A stretch of 64,000 bases of DNA, from the NCBI GenBank assembly GCA_012719035.1, contig JAAYBD010000046.1, positions 1 to 64,000 of the forward strand. Direction: 5' to 3'. Every line of letters begins with the position of its first letter. The first letter of the stretch is position 1. Below the pieces are notes generated by a model. The model worked only from the letters and a program-made list of their open reading frames with translations. It did no database searches and was not told the origin of the DNA. Positions 13,721 to 47,675 of the stretch are shown here, piece by piece. A program made the position numbers and the translations under genes. Source of the stretch: Clostridiales bacterium. GTDB lineage: Bacteria > Bacillota > Clostridia > Oscillospirales > Oscillospiraceae.

Positions 13721-13983
13721 TGCTTACAAGAGAAGTAACTATCAATAATCAGGTTGGTCTGCACGCAAGACCCGCAACGTTTTTTATTCAAAAGGCCAAT
13801 GAATTCAAAAGCAGTATCTGGATTGAAAAGGATGACCGAAAGGTAAATGCAAAGAGTCTTTTGGGGGTACTGTCTCTCGGCATTGTTAAAGGCACTTCCG
13901 TTAACCTCGTAGCGGACGGAAGCGATGAGAAAGAAGCACTCAATACTTTGGCGGCTCTCATAGCATCTGATTTTACAGAATAA
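13721..13983 (+). CDS. HPr-family phosphocarrier protein
   Basis: TREVTINNQVGLHARPATFFIQKA (His-15 site GLHARPA), VNAKSLLGVLSLGI (Ser-46 region). Track ORF begins at 13711; the translated start ATG is at about 13721. Confidence 0.9.
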
Positions 13984-13998
13984 TTGATGTCCATATAG

Positions 13999-14034
13999 AA
14001 TGGGGCGTGTTTTTGCTGACACGCTCCATTTTTT
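13999..14034 (+). terminator. Rho-independent terminator after the HPr gene
   Basis: AATGGGGCGTGT-ttttgctg-ACACGCTCCATT followed by TTTT. Confidence 0.8.
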
Positions 14035-14145
14035 GCGTAGGAAGGTGCGCCGCAGATCTGTTTTGCTGTACAAAGGGATACAATAAGCTTGACCCTAAAT
14101 ATAATATAAGCTAAGATGTTCAGTATAAAAAACGGAGGTGGTACC

Positions 14146-16005
14146 TTGCTCATTGACGAATTACGCGAAAAAGCGAACCGTCTTCCGCTTTTGCCGGGCG
14201 TATACCTAATGCTTGATGAAAAGGGCGAGGTCATCTATGTAGGCAAGGCAAAGGCGCTGAAAAACCGCGTGACAAGCTATTTTCGGGGCGAACATGAACC
14301 GAAAACCGCTGCAATGGTTGAAAAAGTACGCGATTTCAACGTAATAGTCGCCGCCTCCGAATTTGAAGCGCTTGTGCTGGAAAATTCTTTAATAAAGCGT
14401 CATCAGCCGCACTATAACATCATGCTCCGCGATGACAAGACCTATCCTTTTATAAGACTGGATGTGAAAAGCGAATGTCCCCGCTTTTCGATTGTCAATA
14501 AAACTGCGGACGACGGCGCAAAATATTTCGGTCCTTTTGGGGGACGGAGACTGACCCGGGATATAATAGATACGATATCCAAGGCTTTGCTTCTTCCCAC
14601 TTGCGGGAAAAAGTTCCCGCGGGATTTTGGAAAGAGCAGAACCTGCTTGAATTATCATATGGGGAACTGCGCCGGCTACTGCGCGGGCAAAGCGGGCAAA
14701 GAAGAATACGAAGCCCGCATACGCGACGCTGAAATGCTATTGAACGGCAAATCTGCCGAATTAAAAGCTGAACTTGAAAAAGAAATGCTGAAAGCATCGG
14801 ACGAGCTGCTTTTTGAAAAAGCGGCTCAGTACCGCGACAGGCTCCGCGCGATAGAAGGACTCAACAACAGGCAGATGGTCATAGGCGGAACGGGGTCAGA
14901 TACGGATGCCGTTGGTTTTTACAGAGGTGCAAAATCTTGCTTTTCCGTTTTGCATTATACAGGAGGGAACCTTTCGGAAAAGGAATCTGAACTGACGGAC
15001 GAGCCTCTTGAGAGTGATCCCGAAGCTGTTTCCGCCCTTGTCAGGCAGTATTACTCCATGCGCGGCGCATGGCCGAAAACCCTGCTGCTTCCCTTTGAAA
15101 CAGAGGATATGGCAGAGATAGAACAAATGCTCTCGGAGGCATCCGGGCACAGGGTCTATATAGAAGTGCCGCAAAGAGGCGAAAAGCGTTTCTTGGTCGA
15201 AAAGGCTATGCTTAACGCAAAAGAGGAATGTATGCGCTTTACAACTGCGCAGCAGCGCAGGATGAAAACCTTGGAATGGCTTCAGGACGCACTCGATTTA
15301 AAAGATTTGCCTAAGCGCATCGAGGCGTTCGATATATCGAACACAGGCAATTTCGGCATAGTCGCATCAATGACCGTTTTTTTGAATGGAAAACCACTAA
15401 AACGCGACTATCGCAAATTCAGGATAAAAGGGCTGGAATCACAAGACGATTTCGGCAGCATGAGAGAAGTTTTGAAGCGCCGCTTTAACCGATATCTGGA
15501 CGGCGACAGTTCGTTCGGTGAGCTGCCCGATCTTCTGCTTGTAGACGGAGGAGCCGTTCACGCAGGGATTGCGGAGGATGTTTTAAAAGAGCTGAATATT
15601 TCGCTGCCCGTTCTGGGAATGGTAAAAGATGACCGCCACCGCACGCGCGCTCTAATATACTCAAGCGGAAAAGAGGTCGGAATAACGGGCAATACCGCAG
15701 TGTTTTCTCTCATCGGCAATATTCAGGAGGAAACGCACAGATTTGCTATAGAGTATCACCGAAGTCTGCGGAACGCGACGATAGGTTCACAGCTTGAGGA
15801 TATCAAAGGCGTCGGCGAAGTACGCCGGAATGAGCTTCTAAAGCACTTCAAAACACTGAAAGCTATAAAAAATGCCGCTTATGATGAGCTGTGTGCTGTT
15901 GTACCGAAAAATACGGCGAAAGCTGTTTTCGATTATTTTCACAGCGAAGAGCAGGGGGAAAACTCCGGTAAGCTGTCAGAAACCTACGATTTGGAGGAAA
16001 AATAA
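14146..16005 (+). CDS. uvrC: Excinuclease ABC subunit C
   Basis: GIY-YIG domain LPGVYLMLDEKGEVIYVGKAKALKNRVTSYF; UVR motif; FDISNTGN...; HhH C-terminus. TTG start after GGAGGTGG. Confidence 0.95.
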   Translation: MLIDELREKANRLPLLPGVYLMLDEKGEVIYVGKAKALKNRVTSYFRGEHEPKTAAMVEKVRDFNVIVAASEFEALVLENSLIKRHQPHYNIMLRDDKTYPFIRLDVKSECPRFSIVNKTADDGAKYFGPFGGRRLTRDIIDTISKALLLPTCGKKFPRDFGKSRTCLNYHMGNCAGYCAGKAGKEEYEARIRDAEMLLNGKSAELKAELEKEMLKASDELLFEKAAQYRDRLRAIEGLNNRQMVIGGTGSDTDAVGFYRGAKSCFSVLHYTGGNLSEKESELTDEPLESDPEAVSALVRQYYSMRGAWPKTLLLPFETEDMAEIEQMLSEASGHRVYIEVPQRGEKRFLVEKAMLNAKEECMRFTTAQQRRMKTLEWLQDALDLKDLPKRIEAFDISNTGNFGIVASMTVFLNGKPLKRDYRKFRIKGLESQDDFGSMREVLKRRFNRYLDGDSSFGELPDLLLVDGGAVHAGIAEDVLKELNISLPVLGMVKDDRHRTRALIYSSGKEVGITGNTAVFSLIGNIQEETHRFAIEYHRSLRNATIGSQLEDIKGVGEVRRNELLKHFKTLKAIKNAAYDELCAVVPKNTAKAVFDYFHSEEQGENSGKLSETYDLEEK

Positions 16006-35565: not shown

Positions 35566-35695
35566 TGCATCGTGCAGCAACGAACCGCCAAAGACGCTGA
35601 GAAACTTCATTAATTAACAAAAAGCTAACAGTAAGTACCCGCTCTTTTTCAGGACAGCACAGGTGCTTACTGTTAGTTTATTTTGGCTTATATGT

Positions 35696-36571
35696 TTAGC
35701 GCTCCGTATCTGTATGGGAAATCATTTGGCGCTCCTTGGACTTCCGACCGTTCTGCCCGAAGACCAGAAGCCCTGTAAGACCGGAGCCGCTGCCGACCAT
35801 CAGCATTACCCATAACAGCGGATTGCTGCTGTCTCCGGTTTTGGGGATGTCTTCAATCGGAACAGGTTTGCCGGAAGGCAAATCTCCCCCCGGAATCTCA
35901 TCATCGGGAATATCTGCATCAGGCAAATCTCCCGCAGGAGTGTCATCATCGGGGATATCTATTGGCGGATCATCAGGCGATGGTTCGGGGGTAGGGTAGG
36001 GTCCCTCTCCGCCGCCGCTGTTTATTGATTGCTCCGCATATAAATACCAATCAACAAAGCTCTTTGCATTTTGGAAGCTGTTGTTCATCTCAATCGGAAG
36101 TGTAAGGGAAACTGTGAGAATCTTGCTGTCACCGGGATGAAAAGTCCCAAGAAGCACCCCCTTGGCATACGGATTTTCTACGCCGCTTTCCTTATAGGCG
36201 TCCATCACGTTAAGTTCTGTTCCGCCACTTAAAACTTTCAGCGTCATACTCTTCAAAAAATCTGGAACAGTCTCCTCACCGGGAGCGGCATAGAGATAAA
36301 TCCTGAATTGCCCGCTGTTGCCCCGGGCTGACTCTACGGTAATTGTTTGCGTAAGAGTATCTCCGGGCATGACACCGCTGAAATTGTCAAACAGATTGCC
36401 GTCGTCCCTGTTGAAAGTGAAATTAGCTTGATTGCCGCTGGCCACTAAAGTGATTGTAGGATTTTCATTTTCCTCGGTTGCCAGAGTTCCGAGGGCACCT
36501 ATGCTGCAAATAAAGAGTGCGGCAAGAATGAGTACGGATGTAAGGAACAGTTTGCTCTTTTTCATATTCAT
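35696..36571 (-). CDS. Secreted surface protein with Asp/Pro-rich stalk and IPKTG sortase-like C-terminus
   Basis: N-terminal signal; PDDDTPAGDLPDADIPDDEIPGGDLPSGKPVPIEDIPKTGDSSNPLLWVMLMVGSGSGLTGLLVFGQNGRKSKER: motif, hydrophobic helix, basic tail. Confidence 0.8.
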   Translation of the reverse strand: MNMKKSKLFLTSVLILAALFICSIGALGTLATEENENPTITLVASGNQANFTFNRDDGNLFDNFSGVMPGDTLTQTITVESARGNSGQFRIYLYAAPGEETVPDFLKSMTLKVLSGGTELNVMDAYKESGVENPYAKGVLLGTFHPGDSKILTVSLTLPIEMNNSFQNAKSFVDWYLYAEQSINSGGGEGPYPTPEPSPDDPPIDIPDDDTPAGDLPDADIPDDEIPGGDLPSGKPVPIEDIPKTGDSSNPLLWVMLMVGSGSGLTGLLVFGQNGRKSKERQMISHTDTER

Positions 36572-36580
36572 CCTCCTCCG

Positions 36581-37162
36581 TCACTTTGAAGCCAACTGGC
36601 CGCCGTTTACCTGTACTGCATTCCAAGCATCTGCAACAGCCGATTCCGGTTCTGCTTGAATTGCCTCGCAGAGTATTTGCAGATTCATCTTGTATCCATC
36701 GCTGGAAGTTTTGACTGCTGCACTGTTTATCAGTACGGGGGTAAGAGCATTAGGTGCGATTTTGCTCTTGCAGTAATAGTAGCCATCGGAGCCCTTGAAC
36801 CAGGAACCTGTGCTGATTGAAATAGACAGATCATTTAGACTTGCGGTTTGGTTGACTACATTGCCGCTTCCGTCTTCCCACGTGGGGATTACTGCAACTC
36901 GAATCCATGCGTCAATATCGCCGGTGTTCCGGATTTTAACATTGCTTTTGGTTGTGTTGTTAAATGTTTCCTCAACTTTGCTGGTCACAGCAACCGTCTT
37001 GAAGCTGTTTCCTATAGTGCCGGATGAAACTGCGAGCAATGCAAGGGTGCCGCCTGCGGCAACACCTAAGATAAGGAGCAGTGACAGCAGCAGAGCCGCA
37101 GACCTGCCGTTGCCCCGTCTATTATACCTGCGGATTTTTATTAGGCGGTCACCTCTTTTCAT
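36581..37162 (-). CDS. TasA/SipW-cognate-type secreted protein (paralogue 4)
   Basis: AALLLSLLLILGVAAGGTLALLAVSSGTIGNSFKT; SNVKIRNTGDIDAWIRVAVIP; LQILCEAIQA. Confidence 0.72.
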   Translation of the reverse strand: MKRGDRLIKIRRYNRRGNGRSAALLLSLLLILGVAAGGTLALLAVSSGTIGNSFKTVAVTSKVEETFNNTTKSNVKIRNTGDIDAWIRVAVIPTWEDGSGNVVNQTASLNDLSISISTGSWFKGSDGYYYCKSKIAPNALTPVLINSAAVKTSSDGYKMNLQILCEAIQAEPESAVADAWNAVQVNGGQLASK

Positions 37163-40113
37163 TTAAATTTGTTTTCCATATAGTTGGATCCGCTGAGCCA
37201 CGCTTTATTTATGAGGGTGTTGCTAATGCTTATGGTATTCGAAGGATTGCTGCAGTTCAGTGTTACGGATGTTGTGCTTGCCGCCGCATACCGCCAAGAC
37301 CAATTGCCCTCCTCTTGGACCGAGTAGACACCGATGGGAAGACCTATGATGATTTTACTGCCGCTTCCTTTTACCACAACGGTCAGGTCGACTTCGTCGG
37401 CATAGTCGCAGCCGCTCAGATTGCTGCCTTTTATGCGGAGGACGAAAGTTTGACTGCTTCCGTAGGACTCCTTGCATCCGCTCTTTGAAACGGTCAAAGT
37501 GCAGGTTTTGACATTGACGGCAAACTCCTTATCTGATGCCGATCCCGCGTGACTGGTGCCGTTATTTACGAAAGTAACATACTGGGTGATATCCCAGTCT
37601 CCAGCTTTTACGGTTACATCCACGGGCGTGTCGCTTTTGAAGCAGGAGGACTCAGGACCATATGTGTAAGTAAGCTCGGGGGCTGTACCCTGCACATTGT
37701 CCGAATCCGCTGTTACCGCGCCATGCTTCCAGCTTAAAGAGCCGACATTCTCTGCGTAGTCCGCCTTTTCACCGAGATATATAGTGCTGTCGCTGAACGT
37801 GATCTCGGGTTTGTAGACGGTGATGCTTGAGACGGCAGTTTCAGTCTTATTTGCGATGCTTCCGCTATGAAGCGGGGGAACTGTTGCGGTCACAGTTATA
37901 TTTGCTTGATCATCTGTAGGCTTTGCCGTAAATGTGGCAGAATAAGTGATTTCGCTTACATCCACGAAGTCAGCTTTCCAACTGTCTTCACCTGAGGGCG
38001 TGGTGATTGGAAGATAAAGATTCTCTATGGACACCGTATTGCCCAGATAAATAGAAGTATTTTTGCCTATGAATGGAACATTAATAGGCACATCTGCTGT
38101 TATCATTTCAAAACTCTCTACAAGATTGTCACCTTCGTATATGCCCGATGAGATATTGTTGGTGGGCACTTCATTGCCGCCCCAGAATCCGTCCTTAGGT
38201 TTTACATCAAAGCTGACGACAAGCTTCTTCCCATGACCTTTGTCGGGTTTTTTGTTTTCCGATACAAATTCCTCGTCATAGGAAAAGCCTTTTACTGAAA
38301 TGGTTTTTGTGCTCCGGTCGATCGAAACCTGCGCGTCGCTGAAAGAAATTTCATCATCCTCCCAAGTATATATACCGCCTGTTTTGCCTGTGCAGGCTAT
38401 AGTGGAAACATTGATGTTGCTTTCATCGTGTATATCGAAATAATCTGAAACGATGTCGCGCACCTCGGCATTGCTTCCAAGTGTAGTGGTAGGCGCACCG
38501 ATTTGCTCGGAAATCCTTTGGAAAATATCATTCAGCGAGGATGTATCGCTCGCAGACAGATAGTAGTTGTGCGTTGAAAGAGCAGTCCGAGTAAAGTTCT
38601 GGGTAATCATATAGCCGTTGCCGCCCATCATATGATTTCCCGGGTTGTAATATCCGTTTGCAATCCCAACATTATCTGCACCCGCATAGTTGCTGGAAAG
38701 ATAATTGAGAAAGCGGTTTCCTGCCGCAATGTCGATAAACCTTACATCTCCGAACCATCCTTTAAAAAAGCTTGCGCCCCACACACTTCCCACTGCTCCG
38801 CTGCAAGGTATGTCGCTGTAAAGACTGTAGTCAAACTTTTCTCCATGCAGCTCATTGGGATTGGCACCGCTGAAGATACCAATGGTATATACGGTTGCAC
38901 CATTTTGCTTCATGCGTTTGGCAGTGCTTATCGCATTGCTTGCCATAGTCGTATTGAAATCCGATTGCGATGTGGGTACTCCGTCGGTAAAAACAACAAC
39001 AACCTTGTTTCGGCCGGAATTGCCTTCAACACTATCGAAAAGCTCCTTTGCCCGATTCATGCCTGCCTCGGCGTTAGTTGCCCCTTGTGGATTTTGAGGC
39101 AAATCGTTGATAGAATTTTTAAGGCTGTTGTAATCGTTTGAAAAGGTACTGAGTGTAGCCGCGTCATCTGCGAAAGTTACAATTGAAATATAATGATCCG
39201 CACCGTACCCCGCGGCATCTGCCGCTACTGCGTCAATAAATTTTGCGATAGAGTCTTTCATCGCCTTTTGTCGGCTTTGTGCGTATCCGCCGCTGTTTCC
39301 TTCAAAATCATATGCCATACTGCCGGATTGGTCTAAAACAAGTATGATATCGGCGGGAACACCTGTGGTTTTTGTGACTACCGCGCCGGTGGTGTAGGAT
39401 TCAAGGCGTATTTTATATGTTCCGTCAGAGTTAGGACTAACGGACTTGTGCACTTCCACTCCCTCGGTATCCTTTGCTTGAAACTGGGAACGGAAATTCA
39501 TCATATGCCTGCCTTGGGAATTTGACTGCATTGCGTCCGAAGCTGTGACAGGTGACACCAAGGGGCCGGCTCTGGTTACGGGTACTGTCGACACTTCAAT
39601 ATTTTTGGAATACAAAGCTGCCACATATTCCTCAAGTGCCAAAAGCTCTTCGGGGCTGAGAGATTGGAGAAATTGCTCTATCTCAGTGTCATCGGTCAGA
39701 GAGATAAAAATCTCATAGAGGGCTTCGGGATCGATTTGTTTTTCCTCGGGCTTTTCCGAGCTTTTTGGTTCCTCTTCATCTTCAGATCCTTCGGAGTTTT
39801 TCGGTTCTTTTGCATCTTCAGAGTCTTCGGAATCGGAAGAATCCTCCGATTCGCCAGAGCCCTCTTTGTTCTCAGAGTCGTCTGGATTTTCAGGATTTTG
39901 AGAAGCTTCGGGCTTTTCAGGTTCTTGGGAAGCTTCGGGTGTTTCTTGACTGCCTGAGCCTCCGGGATTTTGCTGATTATCCGTTTCTTCTATATTGGTG
40001 ATATCTTCTGCTGCGGCTTCCGGCGTTTTTATTTCCTCCGCCTTTGTTATTATGGGAGAGGGCGCGGACAGCAGCAGGCAAAATGCCAACAGCAAAGTTA
40101 AAGATTTTTTCAT
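37159..40113 (-). CDS. Large VWA-domain surface protein with acidic low-complexity N-terminus
   Basis: Signal peptide MKKSLTLLLAFCLLLSAPSP; E/S/P-rich region; MIDAS ADIILVLDQSGSMAYD...VVVVFTDGVPT; pilin-like C-terminal beta domains; start taken as the second Met (track ORF starts at 40152). Confidence 0.88.
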   Translation of the reverse strand: MKKSLTLLLAFCLLLSAPSPIITKAEEIKTPEAAAEDITNIEETDNQQNPGGSGSQETPEASQEPEKPEASQNPENPDDSENKEGSGESEDSSDSEDSEDAKEPKNSEGSEDEEEPKSSEKPEEKQIDPEALYEIFISLTDDTEIEQFLQSLSPEELLALEEYVAALYSKNIEVSTVPVTRAGPLVSPVTASDAMQSNSQGRHMMNFRSQFQAKDTEGVEVHKSVSPNSDGTYKIRLESYTTGAVVTKTTGVPADIILVLDQSGSMAYDFEGNSGGYAQSRQKAMKDSIAKFIDAVAADAAGYGADHYISIVTFADDAATLSTFSNDYNSLKNSINDLPQNPQGATNAEAGMNRAKELFDSVEGNSGRNKVVVVFTDGVPTSQSDFNTTMASNAISTAKRMKQNGATVYTIGIFSGANPNELHGEKFDYSLYSDIPCSGAVGSVWGASFFKGWFGDVRFIDIAAGNRFLNYLSSNYAGADNVGIANGYYNPGNHMMGGNGYMITQNFTRTALSTHNYYLSASDTSSLNDIFQRISEQIGAPTTTLGSNAEVRDIVSDYFDIHDESNINVSTIACTGKTGGIYTWEDDEISFSDAQVSIDRSTKTISVKGFSYDEEFVSENKKPDKGHGKKLVVSFDVKPKDGFWGGNEVPTNNISSGIYEGDNLVESFEMITADVPINVPFIGKNTSIYLGNTVSIENLYLPITTPSGEDSWKADFVDVSEITYSATFTAKPTDDQANITVTATVPPLHSGSIANKTETAVSSITVYKPEITFSDSTIYLGEKADYAENVGSLSWKHGAVTADSDNVQGTAPELTYTYGPESSCFKSDTPVDVTVKAGDWDITQYVTFVNNGTSHAGSASDKEFAVNVKTCTLTVSKSGCKESYGSSQTFVLRIKGSNLSGCDYADEVDLTVVVKGSGSKIIIGLPIGVYSVQEEGNWSWRYAAASTTSVTLNCSNPSNTISISNTLINKAWLSGSNYMENKFK

Positions 40114-40135
40114 TGTTTTTTGCTCCTCTCCTTCG

Positions 40136-40723
40136 TTATGTCGCCGGAGCATCGGACGGTTTACCTGTTTCCTCTTTTGGCCAGCCCTTTACACACAAAA
40201 TTGAATCGGGTTCTGAATCATAGCTGTTGTTGGCTGCCTGCACAGCTTGAGCGCTGACACTGATATGGAAAACCGCATTTTGATATTCGTTGCCCATTGA
40301 TGCGTCAAACAGGATGCCTGTCAATAAGTTAGAGGTCTTATCTCCGGGAGCAAGCTTTTTAGCATAGCGCCAGAAACCCTCTTCATCCTGTATCCAATAT
40401 TGCTTATCAAAGACAAAGACGATATTTTCTTTACTTGTCAGAGGAATGTTTGCGGCAGATTCAAAGGCTACCTCCAGTTTTACTCGGACAAAGCAGTCAT
40501 TTGCACCGGTATTTTCCACAATTACAGCTTGATGCTCCTCATCGGCGGGCATGACCTTGAATGAGTCCGGCTCTTCGTTAAGTTCAATCAGCTTGATTTT
40601 AACATTTCCGACTGTTATAACATTGTGTGCCGTTCCCCGGGCGGTAAGATAGGCATAAGTGCCATAGCCCGTGAGCGCAAGCAAAAGTATAAAAGCGGAT
40701 ACAAATGCGATTTTTTTCTTCAT
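40136..40723 (-). CDS. TasA/SipW-cognate-type secreted protein (paralogue 3)
   Basis: MKKKIAFVSAFILLLALTGYGTYAYLTARGTAHNVITVGNVKIKL; VIVENTGANDCFVRVKLEV; HISVSAQAVQAANN. Confidence 0.8.
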   Translation of the reverse strand: MKKKIAFVSAFILLLALTGYGTYAYLTARGTAHNVITVGNVKIKLIELNEEPDSFKVMPADEEHQAVIVENTGANDCFVRVKLEVAFESAANIPLTSKENIVFVFDKQYWIQDEEGFWRYAKKLAPGDKTSNLLTGILFDASMGNEYQNAVFHISVSAQAVQAANNSYDSEPDSILCVKGWPKEETGKPSDAPAT

Positions 40724-40861
40724 TCGATTACCTCCCTTCCCGCGTTCGTCTATGTTTCGGGCTTTTGATTCGGCGCCTTCCGCGTAAAGCGGGCCGCCTA
40801 AAGGCTGAAAGATAAGATAATCGGATGAGGAAGCTGCTCCCCCATCCGATTTGGGGGTTTT

Positions 40862-41554
40862 CTACGCAGGTACGGGATTAGACTGTTGTTGGGTCAGCGC
40901 AGCAAAAGCATCGCCGGCAGAGTTAAAGCCTGTAGCCTGTATGGCTTCTGCGCTTATATTCATAGTGAATTCGCCGCCGTTTCCTCCGATCGCGCTCATT
41001 TCAGCGTTGTCAAATAATGTAGGAATGTTGATGCTGGTAAACAGGGCGCCTGTTTCAGCACTTTCAGCCAAAATTCCATTATAGTTGTAGACATATGTAA
41101 TGGTATCCTCATCCCGGTTTTCGATGACAGCCGCACGAGTCCATTTTGTTTCATCATGTCCTCCAAAGATTGATGAAAGATCATGGGAGACAACGCTTTC
41201 TTTCCATGCGACGGCATTGCTGAGCGTGACCTTCATTCGGACATAGGCGGGATTTTCGCCGGTATTCCGAATAGTGGGATCTTTAGGGAGTACGGCGCCG
41301 GGGTATATGCCATCATACCTGTTCTCAATAACTTCGATTTTTGAATCTCCGTTAAGCACATATTCCCATATTGCATGACCGCTTGCATCCGTTTTCTTCT
41401 CAACTTTGTGCTCATATAGCTCGATTGCAACGCTGCCGACGGTGAAGGTCTTTTTTGCAGCATCAGTGTTGGTGAAGTAGGCAAGAGTGCCCCCGACTGC
41501 CGCTGCTGCAAGCATCAAGAATGTGGAAAACAGTATCATGCCTTTCTTTTTCAT
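40862..41554 (-). CDS. TasA/SipW-cognate-type secreted protein (paralogue 2)
   Basis: MLAAAAVGGTLAYFTNTDAAKKTFTVGSVAIELYEH; KDPTIRNTGENPAYVRMKVTL; MNISAEAIQATGF. Confidence 0.85.
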   Translation of the reverse strand: MKKKGMILFSTFLMLAAAAVGGTLAYFTNTDAAKKTFTVGSVAIELYEHKVEKKTDASGHAIWEYVLNGDSKIEVIENRYDGIYPGAVLPKDPTIRNTGENPAYVRMKVTLSNAVAWKESVVSHDLSSIFGGHDETKWTRAAVIENRDEDTITYVYNYNGILAESAETGALFTSINIPTLFDNAEMSAIGGNGGEFTMNISAEAIQATGFNSAGDAFAALTQQQSNPVPA

Positions 41555-41612
41555 TCAATTTCCTTTCAGCATGGCGTCATGTTTTTTCGGTTTAAGAATG
41601 CTGTTAACAGAA

Positions 41613-42263
41613 TTAAGAATTGGCGGGGAAGAAGTGTTCAATAACTGCGTCCTTAGCCGTTTCATAGGAAACATTAGCAGACGCCTGATAGGCGTAAGCC
41701 TGCACATTGATTCTTCCTTCGGCACCTTCGGCAATATCTTCTATATTTAAGGTGGGATCTATAGTAATCGTGTTGAACACAGCGGGAAGCGTCTCGTTAT
41801 CCTGTGAAGTTGGAACAATCTTATCCTGGGTTGCGGAATAGACATAAAGACCGGGATATTTTGTACTGTCGACGAGAGTCCAATTGGAATCAATTTGACC
41901 GGTTGCTGCGACATCTTTACCATTCATCTTGGCTGCGTTTTCTACATAGACGAATACATAGCAGGGAGAGCTGTCTGCTAAAACGGTGACGGTGGGGTCT
42001 TTATCCATGGTTGCCCCGGGAATGACAGGGTATTCGTTGGCTGTTATACGAGCCGCTTTGGCGCCTGTGAGCTCCAAACCTGTTTTGGGATCAACTTTTG
42101 CCTCATCCAAGGCAATGGCGAGCTTACTTCCTGCTGTGCTTGTGGTAAAGGTGTTTTCCAGATTTGTCCCGTTTGCGTTAGAGGACAGATACGCCAGAGT
42201 TCCTCCGATGGCAAGTGCCGTGATCAGTGCAATTGAAATAACGATGGTCAAAACTTTTTTCAT
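41613..42263 (-). CDS. TasA/SipW-cognate-type secreted protein (paralogue 1)
   Basis: MKKVLTIVISIALITALAIGGTLAYLSSNANGTNLENTFTTSTAGSKLAI; KDPTVTVLADSSPCYVFVYVE; INVQAYAYQASAN. Confidence 0.85.
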   Translation of the reverse strand: MKKVLTIVISIALITALAIGGTLAYLSSNANGTNLENTFTTSTAGSKLAIALDEAKVDPKTGLELTGAKAARITANEYPVIPGATMDKDPTVTVLADSSPCYVFVYVENAAKMNGKDVAATGQIDSNWTLVDSTKYPGLYVYSATQDKIVPTSQDNETLPAVFNTITIDPTLNIEDIAEGAEGRINVQAYAYQASANVSYETAKDAVIEHFFPANS

Positions 42264-42302
42264 GCTTTTCCTCCTAAAATATAAAATAATACTATGTATA
42301 GC

Positions 42303-42848
42303 TTATTGTTTTTTCATGGATGACTTTCTGTTTCCGGTGTCCGCAGATTCCAAAAGATTGGGGAGTAACACAAGAATCAATAAGACGATACAGGCACAGA
42401 TTCCAATGTACATTCCCGGGGGAGAAGCGATCCAATTTGAGAAATATCCCAGATACGGTATGGAGAACACCGCCTTACCGATTAGGTTCTCATACGGGAC
42501 AGGAGAACCGTCTGCCGCATCGTTGGCATCGCCTTTCGTAATGAAGCGGTGATTTCCTGAATCAACCTCCGTTACCCGATGGGTTACTGCCACCATAGCT
42601 TCGTTCAAAACAAATGTTATGGGGTCTCCCGGCTCAATGTTTTCTGGAGGAACTTTTTTGACATAAATAATCGAGCCTACATGATAAGTTGGTTCCATGC
42701 TTCCGCTAAGTACCACATAGGGTGTGAGTCCTGCCAAGCGTATACCTGACAGAAGCACTGCCAGCACCGCCACGCAGAAAACCAGAATCCAGGTAATCGC
42801 ATTCCACGTTTTTCTTAATGTTTTGTTCATTGTACCGATCCCTCTCAC
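42303..42848 (-). CDS. sipW: SipW-like (ER-type) signal peptidase I
   Basis: PYVVLSGSMEPTYHVGSIIYVKK catalytic Ser region; VTHRVTEVDSGNHRFITKGDANDAADGSPV; C-terminal TM. Ser-His pattern of the SipW/ER-type family. Confidence 0.9.
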   Translation of the reverse strand: MRGIGTMNKTLRKTWNAITWILVFCVAVLAVLLSGIRLAGLTPYVVLSGSMEPTYHVGSIIYVKKVPPENIEPGDPITFVLNEAMVAVTHRVTEVDSGNHRFITKGDANDAADGSPVPYENLIGKAVFSIPYLGYFSNWIASPPGMYIGICACIVLLILVLLPNLLESADTGNRKSSMKKQ

Positions 42849-43110: not shown

Positions 43111-43143
43111 AAAGTCCTCCCTTGTTTGACAAGGGAGGACTTT
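43111..43143. terminator. Perfect hairpin AAAGTCCTCCCTTG-tttga-CAAGGGAGGACTTT
   Basis: 14-bp perfect stem, 5-nt loop between the sipW promoter region and the next genes. Confidence 0.7.
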
Positions 43144-43905: not shown

Positions 43906-44538
43906 TTAATCGATTCCGCTGAATGCGTTATTCATGGTTTCTGAAAATGAACTGATGCCGCCAAGCATAGCGTCGACAGCGTCTGCGCTTGGATTGATTA
44001 CCCATTGATTGTCACGCAGCGAAAGTGTTATATCAACTGTATTGGTCACTTTAGGGTTATCTTCCCGTTCCAACAGATTGGTCAATATATCATTGCTCAT
44101 TTTGTTCATATCTTCGTCAGTCGGACGCTGTTCCTCGGGAAGAAATGCATAGGAAAGCGCTTCTTTAAAAGCTTCGGACATAAACTCGGACATTATGCTG
44201 CTCATATCAAGATTAGTGATTTGCACCTTTACCGTTGCGGTTTCCTTTTCCTCATTAGACTCTATAATTTGGTAGTCAAGGTTTTTAACGAATAAGGTCA
44301 TCATTGACAAGGATTCGTCGTCAGATTCCGCATCAGCCCCCGAGTTGTCTATGTCTTTGAATTGGTCGTTGCCCCAATAGCTCTGCATTGTTTCAACATC
44401 CATGGTTTTTACAGAGTCGATTGCCTTCTGCACAACAGACTGTGCAGATTCTCTTTGAGCACATCCGGCAAGCCCTAAAGCCATTGCGATTGCAAGCCCT
44501 AAGCACAGCGTTTTCTTCATTTTATTTTCCCCTCTCAA
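43906..44538 (-). CDS. Hypothetical lipoprotein
   Basis: Lipobox signal MKKTLCLGLAIAMALGLAGCAQ; acidic polar domain; terminator directly downstream. Confidence 0.7.
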   Translation of the reverse strand: MRGENKMKKTLCLGLAIAMALGLAGCAQRESAQSVVQKAIDSVKTMDVETMQSYWGNDQFKDIDNSGADAESDDESLSMMTLFVKNLDYQIIESNEEKETATVKVQITNLDMSSIMSEFMSEAFKEALSYAFLPEEQRPTDEDMNKMSNDILTNLLEREDNPKVTNTVDITLSLRDNQWVINPSADAVDAMLGGISSFSETMNNAFSGID

Positions 44539-44826: not shown

Positions 44827-45474
44827 TTGGAGGTAATCATGAGCTATAAGCAATTGTTTCGAAAGCCTGTTTATGCGCTGATAGCAGTAGTCCTTGCAGT
44901 TATGCTTTTGCCGGTCACTGCCTTTGCGGCGGATACGTGGACTCAAAAACAGATAAGAGCACATGAAATTGCAAATATGGCAAGAAGCCTTAATCTGCCT
45001 GAGGATAACCCTATAATAGTCGAAGCGAAGCGGCTTTGGCATGAGGACTACGGTGTTTCTTCGGACACACAAAATGAACCGCCGGCATATACCGATGATG
45101 ATGCTACAATGTTAGCGAAAATCATTTACAGCGAAGGGAGGGGAATACCAAGCGATACGGAAAAAGCCTGCCTTGTGTGGGTCGTACTTAACCGAGTGGA
45201 TGCCGGATATGGAAACACGATTGCTGAAGTAGCGGCGGCTCCGGCGCAATTTGGGTATAGGGCGAGCGCACCTGTATGGGATAATCTATTGCTGATCAGT
45301 CATGATGTACTCAGCAGATGGCAAAAAGAAAAGAACGGAGAAACGGAAGTCGGAAGAGTACTGCCAAAAGATTATCTTTGGTACAGCGGAGACGGCGTAC
45401 ATAACTATTTCCGTAATTCTTATAAGGGAGGTACACGCTGGGATTACAGCCTGCCTACCCCTTATGAGAGCTAA
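44827..45474 (+). CDS. Secreted cell wall hydrolase, SleB/Hydrolase_2-like
   Basis: Signal peptide ending AFA; TMLAKIIYSEGRGIPSDTEKACLVWVVLNRVDAGYGNTIAEV and C-terminal Trp/Tyr-rich segment. Confidence 0.75.
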   Translation: MEVIMSYKQLFRKPVYALIAVVLAVMLLPVTAFAADTWTQKQIRAHEIANMARSLNLPEDNPIIVEAKRLWHEDYGVSSDTQNEPPAYTDDDATMLAKIIYSEGRGIPSDTEKACLVWVVLNRVDAGYGNTIAEVAAAPAQFGYRASAPVWDNLLLISHDVLSRWQKEKNGETEVGRVLPKDYLWYSGDGVHNYFRNSYKGGTRWDYSLPTPYES

Positions 45475-45535: not shown

Positions 45536-46345
45536 CTACGCATAAAATGAGTGATTGCCTATTGTAGTGACAAAAGTGCAGTTTTGAACAATCCAAAAAC
45601 TGCTGGCTTTCGACGGATTGAGGAAGTATAAACTATTGCCGGCAACAGAGGCTCCGTCGAGGCAAAGTTTAGCCGCGAGTATACTCTCCTCTGAAGGTGT
45701 GTTGTAGATTGTTCCGTTTGAAATGGGCTGGAATTGCACGCCCCACTTGTCGTCGAAAATGACGTCATAAATGGTGTTAGGATAATTTGGGTTAGCTACT
45801 CGATTAAGGATAACATTTCCGACTGCTATTTTGCCTTTGAGAGATTCGCCGCCGCTTTCGGAGTTTATAATACGAGACAGCCAGTAAACGGAATTACTGT
45901 CGTAATATTTGTCTCCGGATTCAATCGTACCGCTGCCGCTCTTTACAGTCACTTTCTGTGTATTGCCATCCCATGTAACCGAAGCAGCGCCGAGAGCTTT
46001 TGCAAGTGCCCTAATAGGAACCAGAGTGGTCCCGTTGACCAATTTAACACCATCCTGCACATAAAGCATTCGTCCGTTTGCCTCAATATAGCAGTTTCCC
46101 GGACGGGCAATAATAGTGAGGTTTGATGTTCGAACAACAGCCTGTCCGTTTTCCCAAGAGATATTAGCCCCGGGGCTGAGGAGCAGGGTAGTGGCTCTAA
46201 TCGGAACATACGTAGTAGAGTTTTGCAGCGAAACATTGTTTGTTATCGTTGTGCCGTTGACTAATAAGGAAACGGCATTCGCGCCCGGCACGACTGCTGT
46301 AAGCAGGCACACAGTCAGAAGCGCTGTAAGAATCCTTTTTCTCAT
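45536..46345 (-). CDS. Copper-amine-oxidase-N-like domain plus SleB-like cell wall hydrolase
   Basis: VSLLVNGTTITNNVSLQNSTTYVPIRATTLLLSPGANISWENGQAVV and second stalk repeat; C-terminal YWLSRIINSESGGESLKGKIAVGNVILNRVANPNYPNTIYDVIFD. Confidence 0.88.
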   Translation of the reverse strand: MRKRILTALLTVCLLTAVVPGANAVSLLVNGTTITNNVSLQNSTTYVPIRATTLLLSPGANISWENGQAVVRTSNLTIIARPGNCYIEANGRMLYVQDGVKLVNGTTLVPIRALAKALGAASVTWDGNTQKVTVKSGSGTIESGDKYYDSNSVYWLSRIINSESGGESLKGKIAVGNVILNRVANPNYPNTIYDVIFDDKWGVQFQPISNGTIYNTPSEESILAAKLCLDGASVAGNSLYFLNPSKASSFWIVQNCTFVTTIGNHSFYA

Positions 46346-47601: not shown

Positions 47602-47675
47602 TGGCAGCGGGAGAAGGATTCGAACCCTCACAAACAGAGTCAGAGTCTGTCGTGCTACCTTTACACAATCCCGCT
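47602..47675 (-). tRNA. tRNA-Gln (anticodon CUG), CCA encoded
   Basis: Reverse complement AGCGGGATTGTGTAAAGGTAGCACGACAGACTCTGACTCTGTTTGTGAGGGTTCGAATCCTTCTCCCGCTGCCA folds as a cloverleaf; loop C-U-CUG-A-C. Confidence 0.93.

Follow-up and report, generated by a model that had tools for sequence, protein, structure and literature searches.

A conserved SipW operon of gut Clostridia predicted to encode a surface fibre with an exchangeable adhesin tip

Fibres made of several subunits processed by the signal peptidase SipW are already known (TasA, CalY, BsaA), as are VWA tip proteins on sortase-built and type V pili. In the TasA systems cleavage frees an N-terminal strand and a heteropolymer is formed with accessory proteins (PMC9674648, PMC13082335); the donor strand of TasA consists of precursor residues 28-38, directly after the site of SipW cleavage (PMC9674648). 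The sipW-bsaABCRSD operon of Clostridium perfringens makes filaments without sortase B (PMC7395162). Mfa5 is the VWA tip protein of type V fimbriae (PMC7835359), which assemble by donor-strand exchange (PMC9674648). We found no description of a SipW system joined with a tip adhesin or a VWA protein in the accessible literature, which is weak evidence since subscription journals lie mostly outside it.

We analysed a 64,000-nt stretch of DNA from a Clostridiales bacterium (hereafter the window; contig JAAYBD010000046.1), in which an initial annotation had described seven collinear minus-strand genes at 35696-42848. All seven open reading frames are present in the sequence, in the order SipW-A-B-C-VWA-D-E, and the features of the locus are as follows:

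43111 to 43143, strand not given: perfect 15-bp inverted repeat ahead of the operon, probably the terminator of the gene before it.
42303 to 42848, minus strand: SipW-like (ER/archaeal-type) signal peptidase (TIGR02228).
41613 to 42263, minus strand: subunit A, signal GGTLAYL; a candidate for the major fibre subunit, with orthologues in most tip loci and profile homology to D.
40862 to 41554, minus strand: subunit B, signal GGTLAYF, candidate major fibre subunit; TIGR04088 above cut-off, profile homology to D.
40819 to 40851, minus strand: perfect 15-bp hairpin 10 nt past the B stop codon, then ATCTTATCTTT (fold z -4.4); site of the conserved intercistronic RNA in relatives.
40136 to 40723, minus strand: subunit C, signal GTYAYL, candidate base-proximal adaptor to E; TIGR04088 above cut-off, adjacent to E in tipless loci.
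37159 to 40113, minus strand: tip protein with ordinary signal peptide, acidic linker, VWA domain with MIDAS, beta domains and a C-terminal connector with a WLSG..Y..NKF tail.
37162 to 37527, minus strand: C-terminal connector domain of the tip protein (DUF5979/DUF7601/SpaA-like) with its tail, the constant part in an alignment of 49 tips.
36581 to 37162, minus strand: subunit D, signal GGTLALL, candidate tip adaptor; predicted beta-sandwich, partial BsaA match.
35696 to 36571, minus strand: E, wall anchor with ordinary signal peptide, TasA/BsaA-related domain, Pro-rich linker, IPKTG, TM helix and basic tail; profile match to C, tails compared in 44 loci.
35624 to 35676, minus strand: terminator-like hairpin and T-run at the operon end, after E (fold z -4.5).

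The intergenic gaps from SipW to E are, in order, 39, 58, 138, 22, -4 and 9 nt, and the start of D overlaps the end of the tip gene (ATGA), an arrangement of translational coupling. Two starts are amended here: the VWA gene most likely begins at 40113 and not at 40152, given a good ribosome-binding site and an ordinary AxA signal peptide, and the ATG at 42830 is a more likely SipW start than the GTG at 42848. Because a hairpin follows E and an inverted repeat precedes the operon, the seven genes are likely to form one transcription unit. Further upstream the window holds a lipoprotein with sub-threshold similarity to DUF5105 (43906-44538), a further secreted protein of no recognised family (44827-45474), a cell wall hydrolase (Hydrolase_2) with a copper amine oxidase N-terminal domain (45536-46345) and a tRNA gene on the minus strand (47605-47675).

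In good agreement with its initial description as a SipW-like peptidase, the product of the first gene scores 114.8 bits against TIGR02228, the ER/archaeal-type signal peptidase I family (cut-off 51.85, E 3.4e-33); against the Bacillus SipW equivalog NF046067 it reaches 93 bits (E 1.6e-26), below the cut-off of 190. It is the sole ER-type (SipW-type) signal peptidase above cut-off in the 2.29-Mb genome, and SipW-type signals above cut-off occur nowhere else in that genome than in this operon. The four short proteins had been credited with such signals: B and C exceed the cut-off of TIGR04088 (SipW-dependent signal peptide), A falls just under it (15.8 against 19), and D, which has the motif GGTLALL, is not among the matches listed. 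Across the tip loci of relatives described below, SipW-type signals were found in 190 of 194 A-D proteins, in 0/49 tips and in 0/44 E proteins, the motif pattern used for A-D being looser than that used for tip and E; on inspection, tips and E carry ordinary signal peptides of the AxA type.

A tyrosine recombinase gene (Phage_integrase) adjoins sipW, 16-1900 nt away, in about ten related loci (L033 at 13871-15013, L034, L036, L039, L091, L120, L121, L128, L130 and L131); none was seen close to the window operon. Phase variation through an invertible promoter, which the recombinase brought to mind, was rejected after no convincing inverted repeats were found round the promoter regions.

Profile comparison shows A, B, C and D to be homologous to one another (B-D 6.5e-28 by hhalign, A-D 8e-22). 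Their relation to the named fibre families is more distant. B and C score 17.3 and 16.6 against the TasA/CalY family PF12389 (Peptidase_M73), under its gathering score of 22.5, and the same family has no match at 1e-3 genome-wide; D matches the BsaA family TIGR04090 in part, with 42.5 bits (6e-11) against a cut-off of 60, and the best BsaA-family score among relatives, that of C in L120, is 52.7 bits, again under the cut-off. The sequence profiles of B and C found no match to the solved TasA in the PDB. Since the curated cut-offs are missed, we do not claim A-D as members of the TasA/CalY or BsaA families. Profile searches thus bore out the SipW-dependent signals of B and C and left the TasA/CalY, BsaA and SipW-equivalog cut-offs unreached. 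Structure prediction, applied among the subunits to D, gave a beta-sandwich (AlphaFold, pLDDT 91); Foldseek of this model against the PDB returned no significant match, the best being SafA at E 0.01, and TasA was absent from the top 50. Donor-strand pilins recur below significance (SafA, Csu, Caf1). Of the original label 'TasA-like subunits', we keep the SipW-type signals and the beta-sandwich of D and make no claim of TasA orthology.

To follow the operon beyond the window we queried 295 genomes of the order with the VWA protein, retrieved the surroundings and compared the genes one by one; the order SipW-A-B-C-tip-D-E recurs in several families. A second survey used C as query and added further regions and a scan of a genome collection, which gave 77 loci, Pseudoflavonifractor sp. 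Marseille-P3106, Clostridium porci and Merdimmobilis hominis An559 among them. Together these make 98 distinct loci of gut Clostridia, about 40 of which have the gene order of the window and 49 of which have a tip gene. The next gene after the tip is D in 45/48 cases, the gene preceding it is C in 39/45, and E follows D in 37/41; where C is present and the tip is not, C is followed directly by E in 39/39. The tip followed by D and, when the tip is missing, C followed by E thus point to two linked pairs, tip-D and C-E.

Note that the use of C as bait skewed the sample towards C-containing loci, and for this reason we added a class-wide survey with D and the connector domain. Of 391 genomes of the class, D was matched strongly (E <= 1e-24) in 18; in 16 of these a connector domain lay on the same strand within about 750 nt upstream, the two exceptions being G548 and G552. 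Five genomes (G000, G132, G082, G050 and G018) had contributed to the D and connector profiles; setting them aside leaves 11 of 13, and these 13 may partly overlap the named loci. Four related genomes (G484, G640, G419 and G657) show strong connector matches with no adjoining D match. The operon is a conserved feature of gut Clostridia. That genes for secreted proteins stand together here by chance, the objection raised at the outset, or through some loose functional link is exceedingly improbable, given an order kept in dozens of species and a SipW that, like its substrates, is single-copy in the genome.

Several loci depart from the common plan. A second, tipless variant (L096-L107 and L151-L182) has two SipW-like peptidases, C, E, a D-like protein with the signal GASLAWFTDT and very large proteins with GSTFAWFTD signals, up to about 2000 aa. 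In L150 a run of subunit genes, about nine of B type and two of A type, comes before C, E and a tip. L135, a complete tip locus, lies in a MAG whose label, Eggerthellaceae, places it outside Clostridia, which may reflect horizontal transfer or a binning error.

We then turn to the large protein. In the window its VWA domain is recognised with E 6e-19, and the residues of the metal-dependent adhesion site (MIDAS) are conserved among VWA-type tips. We modelled 780 residues with AlphaFold (pLDDT 82; the conserved tail is of low confidence in the monomer) and compared the model with the PDB by Foldseek. The best seven matches are all pilus tip adhesins: PitA (4e-25), three chains of SpaC (3e-23 to 3e-21), Mfa5 (1e-17), RrgA (3e-16) and GBS104 (8e-14). 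Global TM-scores are low (0.18-0.30), probably reflecting a differing domain arrangement, and the tip-pilin match spans nearly the whole protein. The protein thus combines a MIDAS-bearing VWA domain with a multi-domain beta architecture that matches solved tip pilins, and is best read as a pilus-tip adhesin, with fold homology suggesting its place at the tip; it may instead be a VWA adhesin associated with the surface elsewhere than at a filament end.

In an alignment of 49 tips, the shared part is confined to the final ~110 residues. This SpaA-like connector domain is matched in relatives by Pfam DUF5979/DUF7601 and carries a WSWRY motif and a WL-G...N tail (WL..N in 45/49 tips). The heads differ, and the tips range from 508 to 2168 aa. 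A VWA head with the MIDAS motif DxSxS is present in 26/49; some loci have the Pfam domain 'Tip pilin GBS104-like Ig' in the tip slot, at times together with VWA, and others have GH20 with SHIRT, MucBP or Listeria-Bacteroides repeats, SH3_3, PMP-like repeats or beta-helix heads. The VWA domain was accordingly dropped as the defining part of the system, other heads sitting on the same C-terminal domain in L046, L050, L091, L092, L043, L093 and L132: what had been seen as a locus built around a giant VWA protein has the connector domain as its constant part, with VWA as one of several exchangeable heads. In one tip (L091:6073-10209) the head is a GH20 glycosidase followed by SHIRT, possibly a glycan-degrading enzyme shown on the fibre.

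At the other end of the operon, E of the window does have the IPKTG tail first reported for it, followed by a TM helix and KK. In most loci the end of E is made up of PxTG, a TM helix and basic residues; by a strict pattern the PxTG motif is degenerate or absent in 18/44 tip loci. The domain of E matches C by profile (1.6e-12), and the distance from the mature N-terminus to the PG motif has a median of 37 residues in E versus 54 in C. Sorting-type tails (IPKTG here, PPQTG/LPxTG in many loci) and tip heads that resemble those of sortase-pilus tips could be taken to mean that the operon encodes a sortase-built pilus, with E or another subunit cross-linked and SipW a mere secretion accessory. We regard this as quite improbable because no sortase is found among the seven genes, the genome's two being on other contigs outside the operon, and because sorting signals are missing from tips and shaft subunits, with LPXTG in 0/49 tips and none seen in the window's A-D. 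One of the two sortases adjoins a protein ending in MPKTGD, which resembles the IPKTGD of E.

The sole long gap of the operon lies after the last A/B gene, with a median of 145 nt versus 12-60 nt elsewhere. Compared with shuffled sequence this gap folds much more stably: its median z is -5.4 where the locus has a tip gene and -5.3 where it has none, versus -1.6 for the gaps between A/B genes. Sequences from thirteen loci could be aligned to a structure of two tandem hairpins; 17 of its 25 pairs have changed on both sides, and none of 500 shuffles was as good. These sequences had been trimmed by hand from predicted hairpins, which may bias the alignment somewhat towards structure. A covariance model built from them recognises the element in 17 held-out loci (E < 0.001), in most cases 13-40 nt past the last A/B stop codon. 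Loci with the RNA include L033:11791-11943, L118:3079-3240 and L121:9860-10000. Rfam has no family for this RNA (window and seven related loci searched). The window's own gap (40724-40864) was considered as a member of the family and set aside, since the covariance model does not match it; its equivalent is a different hairpin, the perfect 15-bp one listed above, followed by a T-rich stretch. CCTGC/GCAGG is repeated three or four times in the RNA, whose strands could pair in two alternative ways. In C. perfringens a terminator with read-through follows bsaA (PMC7395162), and the likely role of the RNA, by analogy, would therefore be to keep shaft subunits in excess; it may set subunit stoichiometry.

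Taken together, we think it probable that the operon builds a surface fibre of the TasA/BsaA type, tipped by an exchangeable giant adhesin and polymerised without sortase. SipW would strip the signal peptides of the four homologous beta-sandwich subunits A-D, exposing their N-terminal strands. A and B would polymerise as the shaft, probably by donor-strand exchange like TasA; C would link the shaft to E, whose PxTG-TM-basic tail would keep it in the wall or membrane; and the far end of the shaft would be joined through D to the large protein at the tip, which would dock on D by its C-terminal domain and WL-G-N tail. Binding of the target would fall to the N-terminal head and, in this species, to its VWA domain with the metal-dependent adhesion site, and the hairpin element after A/B would hold shaft subunits above tip and base parts. 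Since the donor strand of TasA lies just past the SipW cleavage site, only the expected chain-end proteins, tip and E, would lack such an N-terminus.

The main rival to this tipped fibre is a biofilm matrix, in which A-D are secreted BsaA/TasA-like fibres and the large protein is a co-expressed, separately secreted matrix adhesin. BsaA is mainly extracellular and self-polymerising (PMC7395162) and the tip protein has no anchor of its own, which is what this reading would lead one to see; we nevertheless consider it unlikely in view of the strict tip-D and C-E linkage, a tip-pilin fold across nearly all of the large protein and the membrane or wall anchor protein E in most loci. The heteropolymeric fibre with adhesin tip and wall base proposed in the initial annotation is thus well supported by synteny, signal partition and tip fold, once its VWA-centred and TasA-orthologous parts are taken away. 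On a broader reading we are evenly divided: that these operons represent a separate class of Gram-positive adhesive pili, with SipW-processed, TasA/BsaA-related donor-strand subunits, an RNA-set subunit ratio and a plug-in tip slot formed by connector domain and adaptor D, where unrelated heads (VWA, glycosidase, mucin-binding, beta-helix) replace one another.

Oscillospirales and their relatives among the Clostridia are a dominant group in the guts of mammals and birds; most have not been cultured, and descriptions of their attachment structures are poor. If true, the proposal gives many uncultured gut bacteria a previously unrecognised means of attachment, and a recognisable operon with a variable tip offers a handle for predicting the binding target of each species. 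These genomes also encode many 'SipW-dependent-type signal peptide-containing proteins' and orphan VWA proteins, for which the proposal would suggest a role, and it joins two fields kept apart, those of TasA matrix fibres and tip-bearing pili. Cultured isolates carry the operon, which opens it to testing now.

Among known systems, type V fimbriae of Porphyromonas gingivalis (Mfa1 with Mfa5) share the VWA tip protein, and Mfa5 is among the top structural matches of ours; they follow a Gram-negative assembly route without SipW. The tips of sortase pili (PitA, SpaC, RrgA, GBS104) are alike in combining VWA and beta domains, and GBS104-like Ig domains occur in relatives of the window's tip; however, that tip has no LPXTG, the shaft subunits are unrelated and there is no pilus sortase at the locus. 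With tapA-sipW-tasA of B. subtilis and TasA-CalY-CapP of B. cereus the operon shares SipW processing and, as proposed here, an N-terminal strand released by that cleavage and a heteropolymer that includes accessory proteins (PMC9674648, PMC13082335); it differs in its larger number of subunits, its tip adhesin and its PxTG anchor, and D has no significant TasA fold match. The sipW-bsaABCRSD operon of C. perfringens is alike in placing SipW first and in encoding a SipW-dependent BsaA-type subunit with further secreted proteins; there, too, a terminator with read-through follows the first subunit, and polymerisation is SrtB-independent (PMC7395162). The window operon differs in having no two-component system inside it and subunits under the curated BsaA cut-off, and to a plan in which a giant tip adhesin is undescribed it adds a tip, the adaptor D and the anchor E.
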